The notes below the pieces were generated by a model. That model did not search any database. It saw only the letters and a list, made by a program, of their open reading frames with translations, and was not told where the DNA came from. Position numbers and translations under genes: made by a program. 52,654 nt of DNA from a virus, in IMG/VR virus record IMGVR_UViG_3300048025_000051, positions 1-52,654 of that record. One strand, written 5' to 3'. Shown in pieces: positions 2,065 through 8,107 of the stretch. The first letter of the stretch is position 1; every line of letters starts with the position of its first letter.

Positions 2065-2295
2065 ATGCAAAATTCAATTCAATCAAAACGCTTCGTCATT
2101 CGCAAATCTCTAATAGGTCAAAACTCTATCATTGAAGTCACATTTAAAAATGGCAAAACATTCAAATATAATCACGACAAAGCTTTTCAACTTATGTCTT
2201 CAAACCTTGAACACTTGAACTGTTGGTTAAAATATAACTCTTATACTTCATCAACTTCAATTCCAAAAGTTCTACAAAATGCTGAGGTTATTTAA
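2065..2295 (+). CDS. Early protein of unknown function (76 aa)
   Basis: A small basic protein with alternating hydrophobic and polar stretches (SIIEVTFKNGKTFKYN) that suggest a few beta strands followed by helices. It is the first substantial gene after promoter P2, so it is probably made very early. The stop codon lies in the loop of a hairpin (2284-2303). I do not recognise a family. Host-takeover roles are typical for such genes, but nothing in the sequence proves one here. Confidence 0.65.
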   Translation: MQNSIQSKRFVIRKSLIGQNSIIEVTFKNGKTFKYNHDKAFQLMSSNLEHLNCWLKYNSYTSSTSIPKVLQNAEVI

Positions 2296-2303
2296 TTAAC
2301 CTC
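2284..2303 (+). terminator. Hairpin at the end of the first early gene
   Basis: GAGGTTA, a 6-nt loop and TAACCTC form a perfect 7-bp stem overlapping the stop codon, followed by TTCATT rather than a clean T-run. It may be a weak terminator or a 3'-end-protecting hairpin upstream of the first tRNA-like element. Confidence 0.4.
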
Positions 2304-2321
2304 TTCATTGAACAAACTAAA

Positions 2322-2352
2322 ACTCGCGCGTTGAAATGTGTACATCACGAGT
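2322..2352 (+). other. Weak hairpin upstream of the tRNA-like element
   Basis: ACTCG (2322-2326) can pair with CGAGT (2348-2352), with a small inner stem and the self-complementary ATGTGTACAT in the loop region. It sits in the non-coding gap before the 2376-2416 element. The pairing is short and may be chance. Confidence 0.25.
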
Positions 2353-2375
2353 ATAAATAATGTTGAACAGATACA

Positions 2376-2416
2376 AGTCACAATGGTTAATGTGAGTTCG
2401 ATTCTCACTGTGACTA
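2376..2416 (+). ncRNA. tRNA-like minihelix 1 (acceptor, D-loop-like linker and T-arm, no anticodon arm)
   Basis: AGTCACA (2376-2382) pairs perfectly with TGTGACT (2409-2415) as a 7-bp acceptor stem, followed by A and CTA. Inside is a 5-bp T-stem GTGAG/CTCAC around the classic T-loop TTCGATT. The only other part is the 9-nt linker ATGGTTAAT, which resembles a tRNA D-loop with its GG pair. The whole anticodon arm and D-stem are absent, so it cannot decode. The same architecture and linker recur at 5971-6010. It ends 25 nt before the next ATG. Acceptor/T-arm minihelices are known minimal RNase P substrates; a processing role is inference. Confidence 0.65.
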
Positions 2417-2441
2417 CTACTAACTTTTTAAAATTACAATT

Positions 2442-2582
2442 ATGACTATTACTAATAAAATACAAAAACTATATAACAAACTAGATTTTCTTCAAGACAA
2501 TGACAGATGGGTTCAATACCGTCAAGTGTACAAAGAAATAACTGAACTAGAAAGATTAAGAGATGAATCATACTCAAACTAA
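2442..2582 (+). CDS. Small helical early protein (46 aa), paralogue A
   Basis: A short, highly charged helical protein (MTITNKIQKLYNKLDFL onward) that starts 25 nt after the tRNA-like element and 6 nt before a similar gene. Its spacing of hydrophobic residues and MTI start match the next ORF, so the two look like diverged tandem duplicates. A two-helix coiled coil is likely. No known family is recognised. Confidence 0.6.
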   Translation: MTITNKIQKLYNKLDFLQDNDRWVQYRQVYKEITELERLRDESYSN

Positions 2583-2588
2583 TTCGCT

Positions 2589-2729
2589 ATGACTATAGAT
2601 AAAATATACAATGAACTACAGTTAATAAATGAGTTTGAAGCTAATTTCAATATCACTCCACAGTCTAAAACTAGACGTGAAGAACTTACAAACAAATTAC
2701 AACAACTAATGGATAATAATATAAAATAA
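2589..2729 (+). CDS. Small helical early protein (46 aa), paralogue B
   Basis: Same length as the preceding ORF and similar in pattern (MTIDKIYNELQLINEF then an ELTNKLQQLMD helix). Its last third is encoded by DNA that also forms promoter P3: the residues LTNKLQQLMDNN cover both promoter boxes. This double use explains the fixed C-terminal sequence. The function is unknown. Confidence 0.6.
   Translation: MTIDKIYNELQLINEFEANFNITPQSKTRREELTNKLQQLMDNNIK
2686..2722 (+). promoter_or_regulatory. Early promoter P3 (inside the end of a gene)
   Basis: TTACAAACAAAT starts 24 nt upstream of TGGATAATAATATA. The next ATG is only 22 nt after the TGG, leaving room for almost no leader. Confidence 0.75.
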
Positions 2730-2731
2730 TC

Positions 2732-2989
2732 ATGCAATACAGAGATATAAAATATAACTACAGCGAGTGGACTACTCACAATGGTAAAAAAGCAAGTGGT
2801 TATTCATGCGAAGCTTTTAACCAACATCCATACCACGTTCAATCATTCTCAACAGAACTCGAACAAGACATGATAACTCAAATTGATGAGTACATTGACA
2901 ATCGAGATAAGTATGAAGCTCGTCGCGAACAAACAAATAAAGCAGCGAAAGAATTTTATAACTCAATGGGTGAATATAAAGGCGATTAA
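2732..2989 (+). CDS. Early protein of unknown function (85 aa)
   Basis: A polar protein with an aromatic N-terminal half (YSEWTTHNG, then NQHPYHVQSF) and a long charged C-terminal helix (DEYIDNRDKYEARREQTNKAAKEF). It follows promoter P3 directly. No family is recognised. The alternative start at 2883 in another frame gives a shadow of this gene and was not used. Confidence 0.65.
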   Translation: MQYRDIKYNYSEWTTHNGKKASGYSCEAFNQHPYHVQSFSTELEQDMITQIDEYIDNRDKYEARREQTNKAAKEFYNSMGEYKGD

Positions 2990-2990
2990 T

Positions 2991-3146
2991 ATGAAGAAAG
3001 ATCTATACAAATACCAAAGAGCTAGAAGCATTAGTAAACGTAAGGTTATTGCTAAAATAACTAAAGCTGAAATTGAAGCTATTGAGCGTGAATACTACGA
3101 TAGATTTAACTCAGAACTATCTTCATGGATAATAATTAAACATTAA
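2991..3146 (+). CDS. Small basic early protein (51 aa)
   Basis: It starts at the ATG 1 nt after the previous stop, which fits the tight packing here; the longer frame opening at 2883 would overlap the upstream gene by more than 100 nt and is rejected. The protein is Lys/Arg-rich at the N-terminus (KYQRARSISKRKVIAK) followed by an acidic-aromatic helix, so a nucleic-acid contact is possible. The function is unknown. Confidence 0.55.
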   Translation: MKKDLYKYQRARSISKRKVIAKITKAEIEAIEREYYDRFNSELSSWIIIKH

Positions 3147-3360: not shown

Positions 3361-3365
3361 GCAAT

Positions 3366-3402
3366 TTACAAACAAATTACAATATCTTTTGGATAATATA
3401 AT
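3366..3402 (+). promoter_or_regulatory. Early promoter P4
   Basis: TTACAAACAAAT starts 24 nt upstream of TGGATAATATAATA. The ATG of the next gene is 25 nt after the TGG. Confidence 0.8.
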
Positions 3403-3414
3403 AAATAACAAACT

Positions 3415-3860: not shown

Positions 3861-4093
3861 GTAAAACGAAAGAACTAGATCTTATAGCGCAGGGCGTTGC
3901 AGATCACTGTAAAGAAATAATGTATGACACTGTCGAATGGCAGATATCAGATCAACCCGTTGACGGTGATGATTTCAACGAGTTACATAGTTATGTAATG
4001 GATTTAGCTATTGAAAAAATGGCTATAGAACTACCTGAATTTAGAAGACTAAACATAGGTGATTACAAACAAAACGAAACAACTACTGGATAA
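3857..4093 (+). CDS. Acidic early protein (78 aa)
   Basis: A helical acidic protein that starts with MSKTKELDLIAQGVADH, a layout seen again in other small genes of this phage (compare the 6990 protein with KKELDYVAEKVADAI). Its last codons and its stop lie inside promoter P5: the TAA belongs to GGATAA of the -10-like box. The function is unknown. Confidence 0.6.
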   Translation: MSKTKELDLIAQGVADHCKEIMYDTVEWQISDQPVDGDDFNELHSYVMDLAIEKMAIELPEFRRLNIGDYKQNETTTG

Positions 4094-4099
4094 TATAAT
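4063..4099 (+). promoter_or_regulatory. Early promoter P5 (overlapping the end of a gene)
   Basis: TTACAAACAAAA starts 24 nt upstream of TGGATAATATAATA. The next ATG is 24 nt after the TGG. Both boxes are read as protein by the upstream gene. Confidence 0.8.
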
Positions 4100-4110
4100 A
4101 AACAACAAAT

Positions 4111-4299
4111 ATGTATTGTAGATGCGGAAATACTGTGCACCCAGTGCGAATAGACTTAGGTTACAAAACTTGTGTTGAGTGTTCAACCACTCAAACTTAC
4201 AGCTATGTACCAATCATCGAGCACAAGACAGGCAATACTATTCAAATCGTCAGCCAAGAAGTATCAGCGAGTGTGCACAGAGCTTGGCGACGTAAATAG
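4111..4299 (+). CDS. Small zinc-ribbon protein (62 aa)
   Basis: The N-terminus has a CxC pair (Cys3, Cys5) and a CxxC pair (Cys21, Cys24) that together form a zinc-ribbon-like knuckle. They are followed by a beta-rich segment with HKTGNTIQIVS. Proteins of this shape are common in marine phages and lack an assigned function; a link to transcription or DksA-like regulation is only a guess. It is transcribed from promoter P5 and followed by the structured RNA region 4298-4424. Confidence 0.7.
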   Translation: MYCRCGNTVHPVRIDLGYKTCVECSTTQTYSYVPIIEHKTGNTIQIVSQEVSASVHRAWRRK

Positions 4300-4347: not shown

Positions 4348-4424
4348 GGGCGTGAAATGGTTAGCGCGAACAAAGTTCGAAAGTACACTATTCGCAAACG
4401 CAGGTTCGATTCCTGCCACGTCCA
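4348..4424 (+). tRNA. Aberrant tRNA or tRNA-like RNA (77 nt)
   Basis: GGGCGTG (4348-4354) pairs with CACGTCC (4417-4423) as a 7-bp acceptor, with A73 followed by CTA rather than an encoded CCA. The T-arm GCAGG-TTCGATT-CCTGC is perfect. After the acceptor comes AATGGTTAG, the D-loop-like string shared with the two minihelices, but no separate D-stem. In the middle, CGAA/TTCG (4378-4394) can form an arm whose loop GTACACT would put ACA in the anticodon position. A competing stem GCGAA/TTCGC leaves a 20-nt loop. The length fits a tRNA, but decoding ability is doubtful. Confidence 0.5.
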
Positions 4425-4429
4425 CTATA

Positions 4430-4466
4430 TTACAAACAAAATTCATTATCTAATGGATAATATATA
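4430..4466 (+). promoter_or_regulatory. Early promoter P6
   Basis: TTACAAACAAAA starts 24 nt upstream of TGGATAATATATAC, beginning 6 nt after the tRNA-like element. The next ATG is only 18 nt after the TGG, the shortest leader of the six. Confidence 0.8.
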
Positions 4467-4471
4467 CGATT

Positions 4472-5265: not shown

Positions 5266-5704
5266 TAAATTAAAACTAGACGAAAAGCTCGTGCAGCAAT
5301 TGCTGTCAGAGGATAACGTTACTACCCCTGAAGATACTAGCTTTGCTATTATGCTTGAGCGTACTAAAAACCATTTTGACTTTGAAATAACAAATGGTTG
5401 GGCTAAAAATCCTGACATGCTGTTTTACACAGAGACAACATCTGATGGTTATGAGGTGTGGATAGCAACAGATGACGATAGAAATATATCAATTAATGAA
5501 GACGTATACTATTATGAAAGTGATTGGCTTGAAAAAATGTCTGACGCTATGACAGATGGTTTAACTATTTACTTTCAAGAACTTGAAGATGAAAACTACA
5601 ATTTTGAAGAAGTTGTACAAGATGTATACGAAGAGTACTACAATGATAAAAAACAAGAACTAATTGAAAAGCTAATTGATGACGGATATGAGTGGGAAGA
5701 ATAA
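5255..5704 (+). CDS. Very acidic early protein (149 aa), possible DNA mimic
   Basis: By hand count it has about 41 Asp/Glu against 11 Lys/Arg, a net charge near -30 over 149 residues, spread along the chain and densest at the end (EEVVQDVYEEYY, DDGYEWEE). It is expressed in the early cluster. Known DNA-mimic proteins such as T7 Ocr share early expression and strong negative charge, but no sequence match is claimed. It overlaps both neighbours slightly. Confidence 0.65.
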   Translation: MTDNKLKLDEKLVQQLLSEDNVTTPEDTSFAIMLERTKNHFDFEITNGWAKNPDMLFYTETTSDGYEVWIATDDDRNISINEDVYYYESDWLEKMSDAMTDGLTIYFQELEDENYNFEEVVQDVYEEYYNDKKQELIEKLIDDGYEWEE

Positions 5705-5963
5705 TAATACAGAACAAAAGCCTCTACCTAAATGGTATGACGGAGCTAAATATACAAAATGGGAAACGGTAACTAACCCGTTTTCAGGTCAATCAGAGTT
5801 GTTATCGCCTAATGAAGTTGCAATGTATGACTTAATTATGGGTTTAACTATGACGCTTGAACGTACAGGTTACAGATCAGAAAGGTTAATGAAAGATCAC
5901 AGGAGAGGTCTTGACTGGTTTAGAGTGGCAAACCCTGAAGCATATATGACTTTGCTAGACTAG
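5688..5963 (+). CDS. Conserved phage protein of unknown function (91 aa)
   Basis: Contains a basic-aromatic start (PKWYDGAKYTKWETVTNPFSG) and the segment LLSPNEVAMYDLIMGL, a pattern I recall from many marine phage small proteins. The ATG at 5688 lies inside the end of the previous gene in another frame; 5676 is an alternative. The stop is 7 nt before the second tRNA-like minihelix. Confidence 0.65.
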   Translation: MSGKNNNTEQKPLPKWYDGAKYTKWETVTNPFSGQSELLSPNEVAMYDLIMGLTMTLERTGYRSERLMKDHRRGLDWFRVANPEAYMTLLD

Positions 5964-5970
5964 CAACAAA

Positions 5971-6010
5971 GGACGTAATGGTTAATACAAGTTCGATTCT
6001 TGTACGTCCA
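5971..6010 (+). ncRNA. tRNA-like minihelix 2 (no anticodon arm)
   Basis: GGACGT (5971-5976) pairs with ACGTCC (6004-6009); the T-arm ACAAG-TTCGATT-CTTGT follows the linker AATGGTTAAT. Discriminator A and CTA follow, as in the other two elements. The acceptor is 6 bp (a seventh pair would be A-A). The paired bases differ from minihelix 1 at most positions while pairing is kept, which argues for a selected RNA structure. It sits alone in the 67-nt gap between two genes and ends 20 nt before the next ATG. Confidence 0.65.
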
Positions 6011-6030: not shown

Positions 6031-6234
6031 ATGCCTAACATGAGTTATTGCCGGTTTGAAAACACGGTAAACGACATGCAAGATTGTTTAAACGCAATCG
6101 AAGATCGTGAAGTAAACGATCTAAGCAATTACGAAATAAAAGCTTTAAATCATTTTTTAGAGCTAGGTAGAGTTATCGTAGATTACGAAGATGATATTCA
6201 ACAAATTTTAGACAGACACTACCATGATGGATAG
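6031..6234 (+). CDS. Conserved phage protein of unknown function (67 aa)
   Basis: Starts MPNMSYCRFENTVNDMQDC, a signature I recall from a widespread family of small marine phage proteins, followed by a charged helix. It begins 20 nt after tRNA-like minihelix 2 and overlaps the next gene by 8 nt. The function is unknown. Confidence 0.65.
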   Translation: MPNMSYCRFENTVNDMQDCLNAIEDREVNDLSNYEIKALNHFLELGRVIVDYEDDIQQILDRHYHDG

Positions 6235-7235: not shown

Positions 7236-8107
7236 TAAAACCAATGCTAGCGCATAAAGTAAGTGAGAACAGAATTGATTTCTCAGAGAAGGTTTTTATA
7301 CAACCTAAACTCGACGGTGTGCGCTGTCTAATTAAAAGAGTATCAGACTTTCCTGGTCAAGAGAACTTAGCATCCTTCAGTGTAAAAGCTTACTCACGAA
7401 CAGGTAAAGAATTTAAAAACGTTAGGCATATTACAAATGCTTTGAAAGGATTTTTCTTGCATAATCCTGACGTAGTGCTTGATGGTGAGTTGTATAATCA
7501 CGATCTAAGAGACGATTTCGAACAAATCATATCATTGGTCAGAAAACAAAAACCGACTGACGAGGATCGTCTAAACGCGCACAGACTAATACAATACCAC
7601 GTATACGATATGATAGCTGAAGGTCCTAGTTACGAAGACAGACTTAACTGGCTGTTGTCAAGTAAAAATCTATGGTCAGACTCGGTTATACATGTTTTAA
7701 CCCTTGGTGTTAGCAAGTATGAAGAAGCTGCTAACGTACACTACGATGGCTTTTTAAAACAAGGTTACGAAGGTTCTATATTAAGACTAAACGGTCCGTA
7801 CGAGCAAAAACGTAGCTACAATTTACAAAAATTCAAAGACTTCAGTGACACCGAAGCTACTATTATTGGCTATGAAGCTGGTAAAGGTAAGTTTACAGGT
7901 CTTATCGGTAAGTTTTTTATGGTAGATGATGATGGTAACGAGTTCGGTTGTCCAATCGGTAAAGGTTACAACTACTCTGATCGTCGTTACATACTAGATA
8001 ACATTCACGATTACATTGGTAAAGTAGCTACATTTACGTACTTCGAGCGTACTAAAGCTGGTAGTTACAGACATCCGTTGTATAAAACATTACGTAACTA
8101 TGAGTGA
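7232..8107 (+). CDS. ATP-dependent DNA ligase (291 aa)
   Basis: Seals nicks in DNA using ATP. Motif I is PKLDGVR with Lys26 as the residue that becomes adenylated; motif III is LDGEL near residue 80, motif IV is EGSIL, and motif V is the LQKFKDF lysine pair. A short OB-fold follows (TATIIGYEAGKGKF onward is near the junction). The length fits small phage ligases with only the two core domains. It is coupled to both neighbours through 4-8 nt overlaps. Likely roles are joining Okazaki fragments and repair. Confidence 0.93.
   Translation: MIKPMLAHKVSENRIDFSEKVFIQPKLDGVRCLIKRVSDFPGQENLASFSVKAYSRTGKEFKNVRHITNALKGFFLHNPDVVLDGELYNHDLRDDFEQIISLVRKQKPTDEDRLNAHRLIQYHVYDMIAEGPSYEDRLNWLLSSKNLWSDSVIHVLTLGVSKYEEAANVHYDGFLKQGYEGSILRLNGPYEQKRSYNLQKFKDFSDTEATIIGYEAGKGKFTGLIGKFFMVDDDGNEFGCPIGKGYNYSDRRYILDNIHDYIGKVATFTYFERTKAGSYRHPLYKTLRNYE

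Follow-up and report, generated by a model that had tools for sequence, protein, structure and literature searches.

tRNA-like minihelices without an anticodon arm form a structurally selected RNA family in phages and may punctuate their messages

What is the nature of a 41-nt element that combines the acceptor stem and the T-arm of a tRNA with nothing between them but a short linker? Such an element, here called minihelix 1, lies in a 52.6-kb virus record (IMG/VR IMGVR_UViG_3300048025_000051, positions 1 to 52,654), the whole of which was analysed and is referred to below as the window. An earlier note had read it as a selected RNA structure rather than a decayed tRNA, and had suggested that such elements punctuate the early mRNA or act as tRNA mimics or decoys. 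The observation was right and proved more general than the note had stated.

From 5' to 3', minihelix 1 consists of AGTCACA, the linker ATGGTTAAT, the T-arm GTGAG TTCGATT CTCAC, the strand TGTGACT and a final A (Table 1). The sequence and a structural scan confirmed the perfect 7-bp stem, the canonical T-arm and the D-loop-like linker described earlier. Minihelix 2 (GGACGT, AATGGTTAAT, ACAAG TTCGATT CTTGT, ACGTCC, A) had been presented as the same design; it does share the linker while its paired bases differ, but its outer stem has 6 bp instead of 7. In both elements the outer stem leads through a linker of 9-10 nt to the T-arm, the D-stem and the anticodon arm being missing. The structural filter retained these two elements on the + strand of the window and none on the - strand, whereas 300 shuffles of the whole window that preserved dinucleotides gave five by chance, about 0.017 per strand. 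A third element, absent from the earlier note, is a truncated tmRNA reduced to its tRNA-like domain (TLD). ARAGORN found no tRNA in the window and Rfam, at gathering thresholds, matched no family there, missing all three elements; the tRNA model RF00005 reached 22.2 bits, below its gathering score of 29, and the D and anticodon arms of a cloverleaf were lacking. Minihelix 2 occupies most of the gap that separates its two flanking genes. A locus nearly identical to that of minihelix 2 was observed in JAAGZR010000458.1 (L189), which is titled as an Aliivibrio MAG and is probably of phage origin, the contig having been assigned to a bacterial genome by a binning error.

Table 1. Coordinates of the tRNA-like elements and of the neighbouring features (in the window, except for the last line).
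Feature	Position	Strand	Description and evidence
Conserved small early gene, 76 aa, KRFVIRKSL...	2065-2295	+	upstream of minihelix 1, as in many flavobacterial phages
Possible hairpin ACTCG...CGAGT	2322-2352	+	fold and identity in close relative; without Rfam match
Minihelix 1	2376-2416	+	sequence, structural scan, family covariation, family model R1 (match not independent, minihelix 1 being among the training sequences)
Minihelix 1 outer stem	2376-2382 with 2409-2415	+	7 bp, perfect
Minihelix 1 linker	2383-2391	+	D-loop-like, 9 nt
Minihelix 1 T-stem	2392-2396 with 2404-2408	+	5 bp, perfect
Minihelix 1 T-loop	2397-2403	+	canonical TTCGATT
Minihelix 1 discriminator-like base	A 2416	+	
Minihelix 1 CTA trailer	2417-2419	+	with A2416, N73-C74-(not C)-A
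Short ORF, 46 aa	2443-2583	+	start 26 nt past minihelix 1
Small zinc-ribbon-like gene	4111-4299	+	upstream of truncated tmRNA
Truncated tmRNA, TLD only	4348-4427	+	RF00023 37.8 bits, E 9e-13
Truncated tmRNA acceptor	4348-4354 with 4417-4423	+	includes G3.U70
Truncated tmRNA D-loop motif AAATGGTTAG	4355-4364	+	followed by variable insert
Truncated tmRNA T-arm	4400-4416	+	then A 4424 and CTA 4425-4427
Gene	5676-5963	+	ends 7 nt upstream of minihelix 2
Minihelix 2	5971-6010	+	sequence, structural scan, family model R1
Minihelix 2 outer stem	5971-5976 with 6004-6009	+	6 bp
Minihelix 2 linker	5977-5986	+	
Minihelix 2 T-stem	5987-5991 with 5999-6003	+	
Minihelix 2 T-loop	5992-5998	+	
Minihelix 2 discriminator-like A	6010	+	CTA trailer 6011-6013
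Gene, PHROG 8760 (unknown function)	6031-6234	+	start 21 nt past minihelix 2
936-group elements	L328 (sk1, AF011378) 2064-2240; L326, L329-L332		

The nearest relatives of the viral terminase were found in an uncultured podovirus (62.6%), then in Flavobacterium elemo phages (46%) and Cellulophaga phages (37-39%), and that of the primase-helicase in Cellulophaga phi10:1 (43%). From these sequence affinities, the host is therefore most likely a flavobacterium. A good minihelix was absent from eleven cultured relatives picked via the terminase or the primase, two of which, Cellulophaga phi38:1 (L229) and Calle_2 (L230), carried a full-length tmRNA (about 362 nt, 87 bits). We also observed a promoter-like repeated block (ACAAACAAA ... 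GGATAATATA) ahead of several early genes of the window (about 1999-2035, 3362-3410, 4062-4110 and 4433-4467).

Viral contigs were searched with the pattern ATGGTTAANNNNNGTTCRANTC, in which only the linker and the T-loop were fixed and pairing was left free. At least 124 matches were obtained; among the matches listed, 92 of 124 had a perfect T-stem and 6-7 outer pairs, and all four Watson-Crick pairs occurred at nearly every position of the outer stem. Compensatory change affected 10 of the 11 pairs in an alignment of 51 distinct sequences which, having been pre-filtered for pairing, gauges the variety of the pairs and not the rate of pairing. Homologues with compensatory changes, which the earlier note had proposed to look for in related phages, were thus clearly present. 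As a rule, the outer stem in the family has 6 bp, and next to it stands an A that is conserved and mostly unpaired. The pair G3.U70 was not conserved among minihelices, which ruled out alanylation as their general function. A stricter pattern retrieved 15 loci from bacterial and archaeal genomes, 14 of them with the fold (at least five outer pairs and at least four T-stem pairs); at least three resemble phage contigs of the window's type. BLAST searches of single minihelices against phage records mostly returned pieces of ordinary tRNAs.

The minihelix recurred downstream of the conserved small gene whose product begins with KRFV (about 35 loci), and loci gathered by this protein alone could therefore serve as an unbiased test. 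We picked 80 loci by the protein and not by the RNA, of which 64 were usable. A minihelix was present within 400 nt downstream in 36 of the 64, against none on the reverse complement, none in the upstream flank and none in 100 shuffles of each segment. When longer inserts were permitted, some acceptor/T-arm element appeared in 47 of 65 loci. Across the 29 distinct elements of the protein-chosen loci, the linker (9-17 nt) was free in sequence and length except for its GG, which the filter required, and the T-loop was TTCGATT in 28. The minihelix is thus a real RNA family under structural selection, in strong support of what the earlier note had proposed. The KRFV protein (KRFVIRKSL...SYTSSTSVP), with 526 relatives in viral contigs, is itself a very common early protein of uncultured flavobacterial phages. 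The cultured-phage collection contained no relative of it, and the structure that AlphaFold predicted with confidence (pLDDT 89) had no fold match, so that a protein partner for the minihelix could not be argued from it.

The minihelices and the real tRNAs of the same phages have in common the 3' end N73-C74-(not C)-A, without an encoded CCA. C74 was found in 55 of 58 minihelices and in 162 of 163 tRNAs, and a C at position 75 in 4/58 and 12/163, respectively. Bacterial RNase P contacts C74, and an encoded CCA discourages RNase Z. By inference from tRNA structure, the linker can contact the T-loop through its GG and so form a tRNA elbow. With its stacked outer and T stems, C74, this candidate elbow and no CCA, the minihelix thus retains the features read by end-processing enzymes and discards those needed for decoding. 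Position +1 is A or T in most minihelices, whereas it is G in tRNAs, and is in this respect not ideal for RNase P.

The elements are intergenic and co-oriented with the genes: 2 of 77 lay within an ORF (at least 40 aa) of the same strand and 8 of 77 opposite an ORF of the other strand. The next start codon was located 2-4 nt past the sixth outer pair in 14 of 123 distinct elements and 5-14 nt past it in two; most of the others were at 15-40 nt, and for many elements the start codon was far off or none was nearby. The close start codons, which concern about ten gene families, are real since the N-termini agree with those of homologues in most cases. Among 85 cases, the stop codon overlapped the element in 5 and lay within 30 nt, overlaps included, in 26. 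At one locus (L016) the stop codon overlaps one side of the element and an ATG stands three bases beyond the other. The start codon stays beside the stem as the linker grows from 12 nt (L301, L309) to 114 nt (L295). Other minihelices have different surroundings: large phages carry them inside tRNA clusters, several close to full tmRNA genes, and L152 (record G008, about 2242-3090, - strand) contains about six near-identical copies spaced by roughly 150 nt; the DNA there is rich in A and C and apparently non-coding, and no clear genes separate the copies. To judge by their sequence context, the minihelices of the clusters and of this array look like trans RNAs, for which punctuation would not be needed.

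The truncated tmRNA of the window scored below the RF00023 gathering score of 47, and it aligns to this model end to end, the 312-nt interior being reduced to 20 nt. It has a TLD without D-stem and lacks the mRNA-like domain with resume codon and tag. Its D-loop motif and T-arm are those of the minihelices, joined by a linker of 45 nt in which an inner stem may form; in a relative (L161/L212) both ends are identical and the insert is different. The mRNA-like domain is absent from minihelices too, and those of other phages match RF00023 weakly or partly. Searching 48 minihelix-bearing phage records with RF00023, we recovered three full-length tmRNAs, together with about 15 elements of the TLD-only type that measure 68-129 nt (that of the window, L202-L212 and L215-L218). 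Most TLD-only elements retain the alanine identity pair G3.U70 but vary in pair 4-69, and those of flavobacterial phages differ freely in the insert that separates D-loop and T-arm. L216 and L217 are intermediate, with a minihelix linker plus a small hairpin, and in L059 a homologue of the zinc-ribbon-like gene that precedes the truncated tmRNA of the window precedes a minihelix instead. This series, the intermediates and the exchange in L059 suggest, without proving it, that in minihelices the reduction of a tmRNA or tRNA has reached its limit.

Punctuation and mimicry, the two functions put forward in the earlier note, are the best explanations of these data, and the gene-boundary geometry favours the former. 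An account that joins the observed structure, covariation, tRNA-like 3' end and gene-boundary position is that the minihelix marks the polycistronic phage message for cutting by the host's RNase P and RNase Z, by analogy with pre-tRNA; we give it about an even chance. RNase P would cut on the 5' side and RNase Z past the discriminator-like base, excising about 40 nt from the transcript; the upstream mRNA would thereby receive its 3' end and the downstream mRNA its 5' end. Cleavage beside a close start codon would leave a leaderless or short-leader mRNA. We ranked this account first because a stem so near to a start codon, if left in place, should block initiation. The 28 protein-chosen loci (of 64) without a short-linker element count against it, as do the A or T at position +1, the elements with a distant start codon or none nearby, the minihelices of tRNA clusters and the L152 array. 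The RNase Z family was matched in a Bacteroides control genome and had no match in the phage record. Both the cleavage and a selection for cutting itself, rather than for the released RNA, are what we infer. If the elbow instead stayed in the message, it could recruit or block ribosomes or shield the mRNA from exonucleases, in keeping with its intergenic, gene-co-oriented position and with start codons typically 15-40 nt away. We hold such an uncut cis element to be improbable: besides the blocked initiation just mentioned, it would leave the tRNA-specific 3' end and the T-loop identity unexplained, and minihelices also occur in tRNA clusters without an mRNA.

Somewhat unlikely, though less so than the uncut element, is that the excised minihelix acts in trans as a stable tRNA/tmRNA-elbow decoy occupying SmpB, EF-Tu or some other host factor that binds tRNA and silencing, for example, trans-translation or a tRNA-targeting defence, the site at a gene boundary being a mere convenience of co-transcription. 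The TLD-only tmRNAs of the same phages, mostly with G3.U70, the exchange in L059, the L216/L217 intermediates, the L152 array and the minihelices of tRNA clusters all speak for it, and a precedent exists: in E. coli, tmRNA is strongly inhibited by a TLD-only molecule of the kind known from mycobacteriophage DS6A, whether or not this molecule can be charged, and the effect may come from titration of SmpB (PMC4131195). A decoy does not predict the start codons 2-4 nt past the stem or their scarcity at 5-14 nt, nor would one expect of it a linker highly variable save for GG, or a G3.U70 that is not conserved. The two roles could also be combined, excision yielding mRNA ends and the released RNA having a use of its own. 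As for functionless remnants of tRNA or tmRNA genes or of attachment sites, the clear likeness to the T-arms of tRNAs and tmRNAs and the coexistence of truncated tmRNAs would fit such decay, which we nevertheless find hardly credible: both stems show compensatory changes, the position is kept despite divergent linkers, and in a close relative of the window the minihelix is identical though its flanks partly diverged. Covariation and the 36 of 64 protein-chosen loci, against none in the controls, led us to reject a decayed tRNA or attachment-site remnant. With rather less confidence than the cleavage itself, we propose that minihelices, stripped of every decoding part, are a new, widespread viral RNA class of sequence-independent RNase P/RNase Z signals that split operons into separate, sometimes leaderless mRNAs, possibly in series with TLD-only tmRNAs, and that released copies may inhibit trans-translation.

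Acceptor/T-arm minihelices have served as substrates in the test tube and have also been used to model early tRNA. Hairpins of this kind, the AT1-type model substrates, are cut by E. coli RNase P (PMC11143913), in agreement with the sufficiency that the earlier note had invoked; they were designed and have no GG linker, whereas the phage minihelix is natural, conserved and located within operons. Plant mitochondrial t-elements are tRNA-like structures at mRNA ends, have no encoded CCA and are cut by RNase P and RNase Z (PMC11658184). Minihelices share with them the tRNA likeness, the unencoded CCA and, by their start and stop distances, the position at the ends of protein-coding messages. However, t-elements are homologues of tRNA genes with a typical tRNA-like fold, whereas minihelices have only acceptor, T-arm and linker, occur in phages and are predicted to be cut. 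In mitochondrial tRNA punctuation, as described in the literature, tRNA units excised between genes make the mRNA ends; these are working tRNAs, whereas the phage minihelix cannot decode, and its role at message ends would be an analogous one. TLD-only tmRNAs are known from DS6A and some organelles (PMC4131195, PMC11915505), and the truncated tmRNA of the window is of the same kind as that of DS6A, phage-encoded and without tag reading frame or D-stem. Minihelices differ from this type by having no inner helix or insert, not keeping G3.U70 and having a 6-bp outer stem. Full-length phage tmRNAs (PMC9004378) are also phage RNA genes with a TLD, but complete with a tag reading frame, and some minihelix phages carry one as well. 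tRNA-like processing signals and TLD-only tmRNAs are thus known kinds; a family of natural phage minihelices (~40 nt) was not reported in the literature searched, which covered few subscription papers, so that its absence is not proven.

Many bacterial viruses carry a minihelix between genes, and phage genomes contain many tRNA-like RNA genes that slip past tRNA finders. If cut as predicted, minihelices would let phages of Bacteroidota, and probably others, make mRNA ends with the tRNA-processing enzymes of the host, a prokaryotic parallel to mitochondrial tRNA punctuation. They would also be joined to the TLD-only tmRNAs, a group with a precedent as inhibitors of ribosome rescue.

Structured-looking motifs, e.g., CTCACACAGGTGACTGTCCGAACCTTCAGGCAACGGGAAAACTGGGCAGGGTAAATACACGTGAG, recur between the KRFV gene and the minihelix (window 2322-2352; L019, L064, L082, L094, L111, L022, L043, L050, L099, L067, L070 and L080). 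An Rfam scan of eight loci bearing them gave no family for the motifs, which are possibly protectors of mRNA 3' ends or another RNA family. Elements also turned up, unannotated, in named phages. Flavobacterium phage FL-1 has one of the minihelix kind near 7240-7300 of KY421186; its 6-bp stem is bulged, and TCTA and an ATG come after it. Lactococcal phages of the 936 group, including sk1, have two anticodon-less tRNA-like elements in the middle transcript, beside real tRNA genes. A survey of 936-group genomes had reported neither tRNAs nor tmRNAs (PMC6105707), and the published ribosome profiling left out reads that mapped to tRNAs (PMC10986495). The linkers of the two lactococcal elements measure 6, 8 or 21 nt at one position and 16 nt at the other, and the C74-A76 trailer is lacking; judging from their sequences, they may represent a separate reduction.
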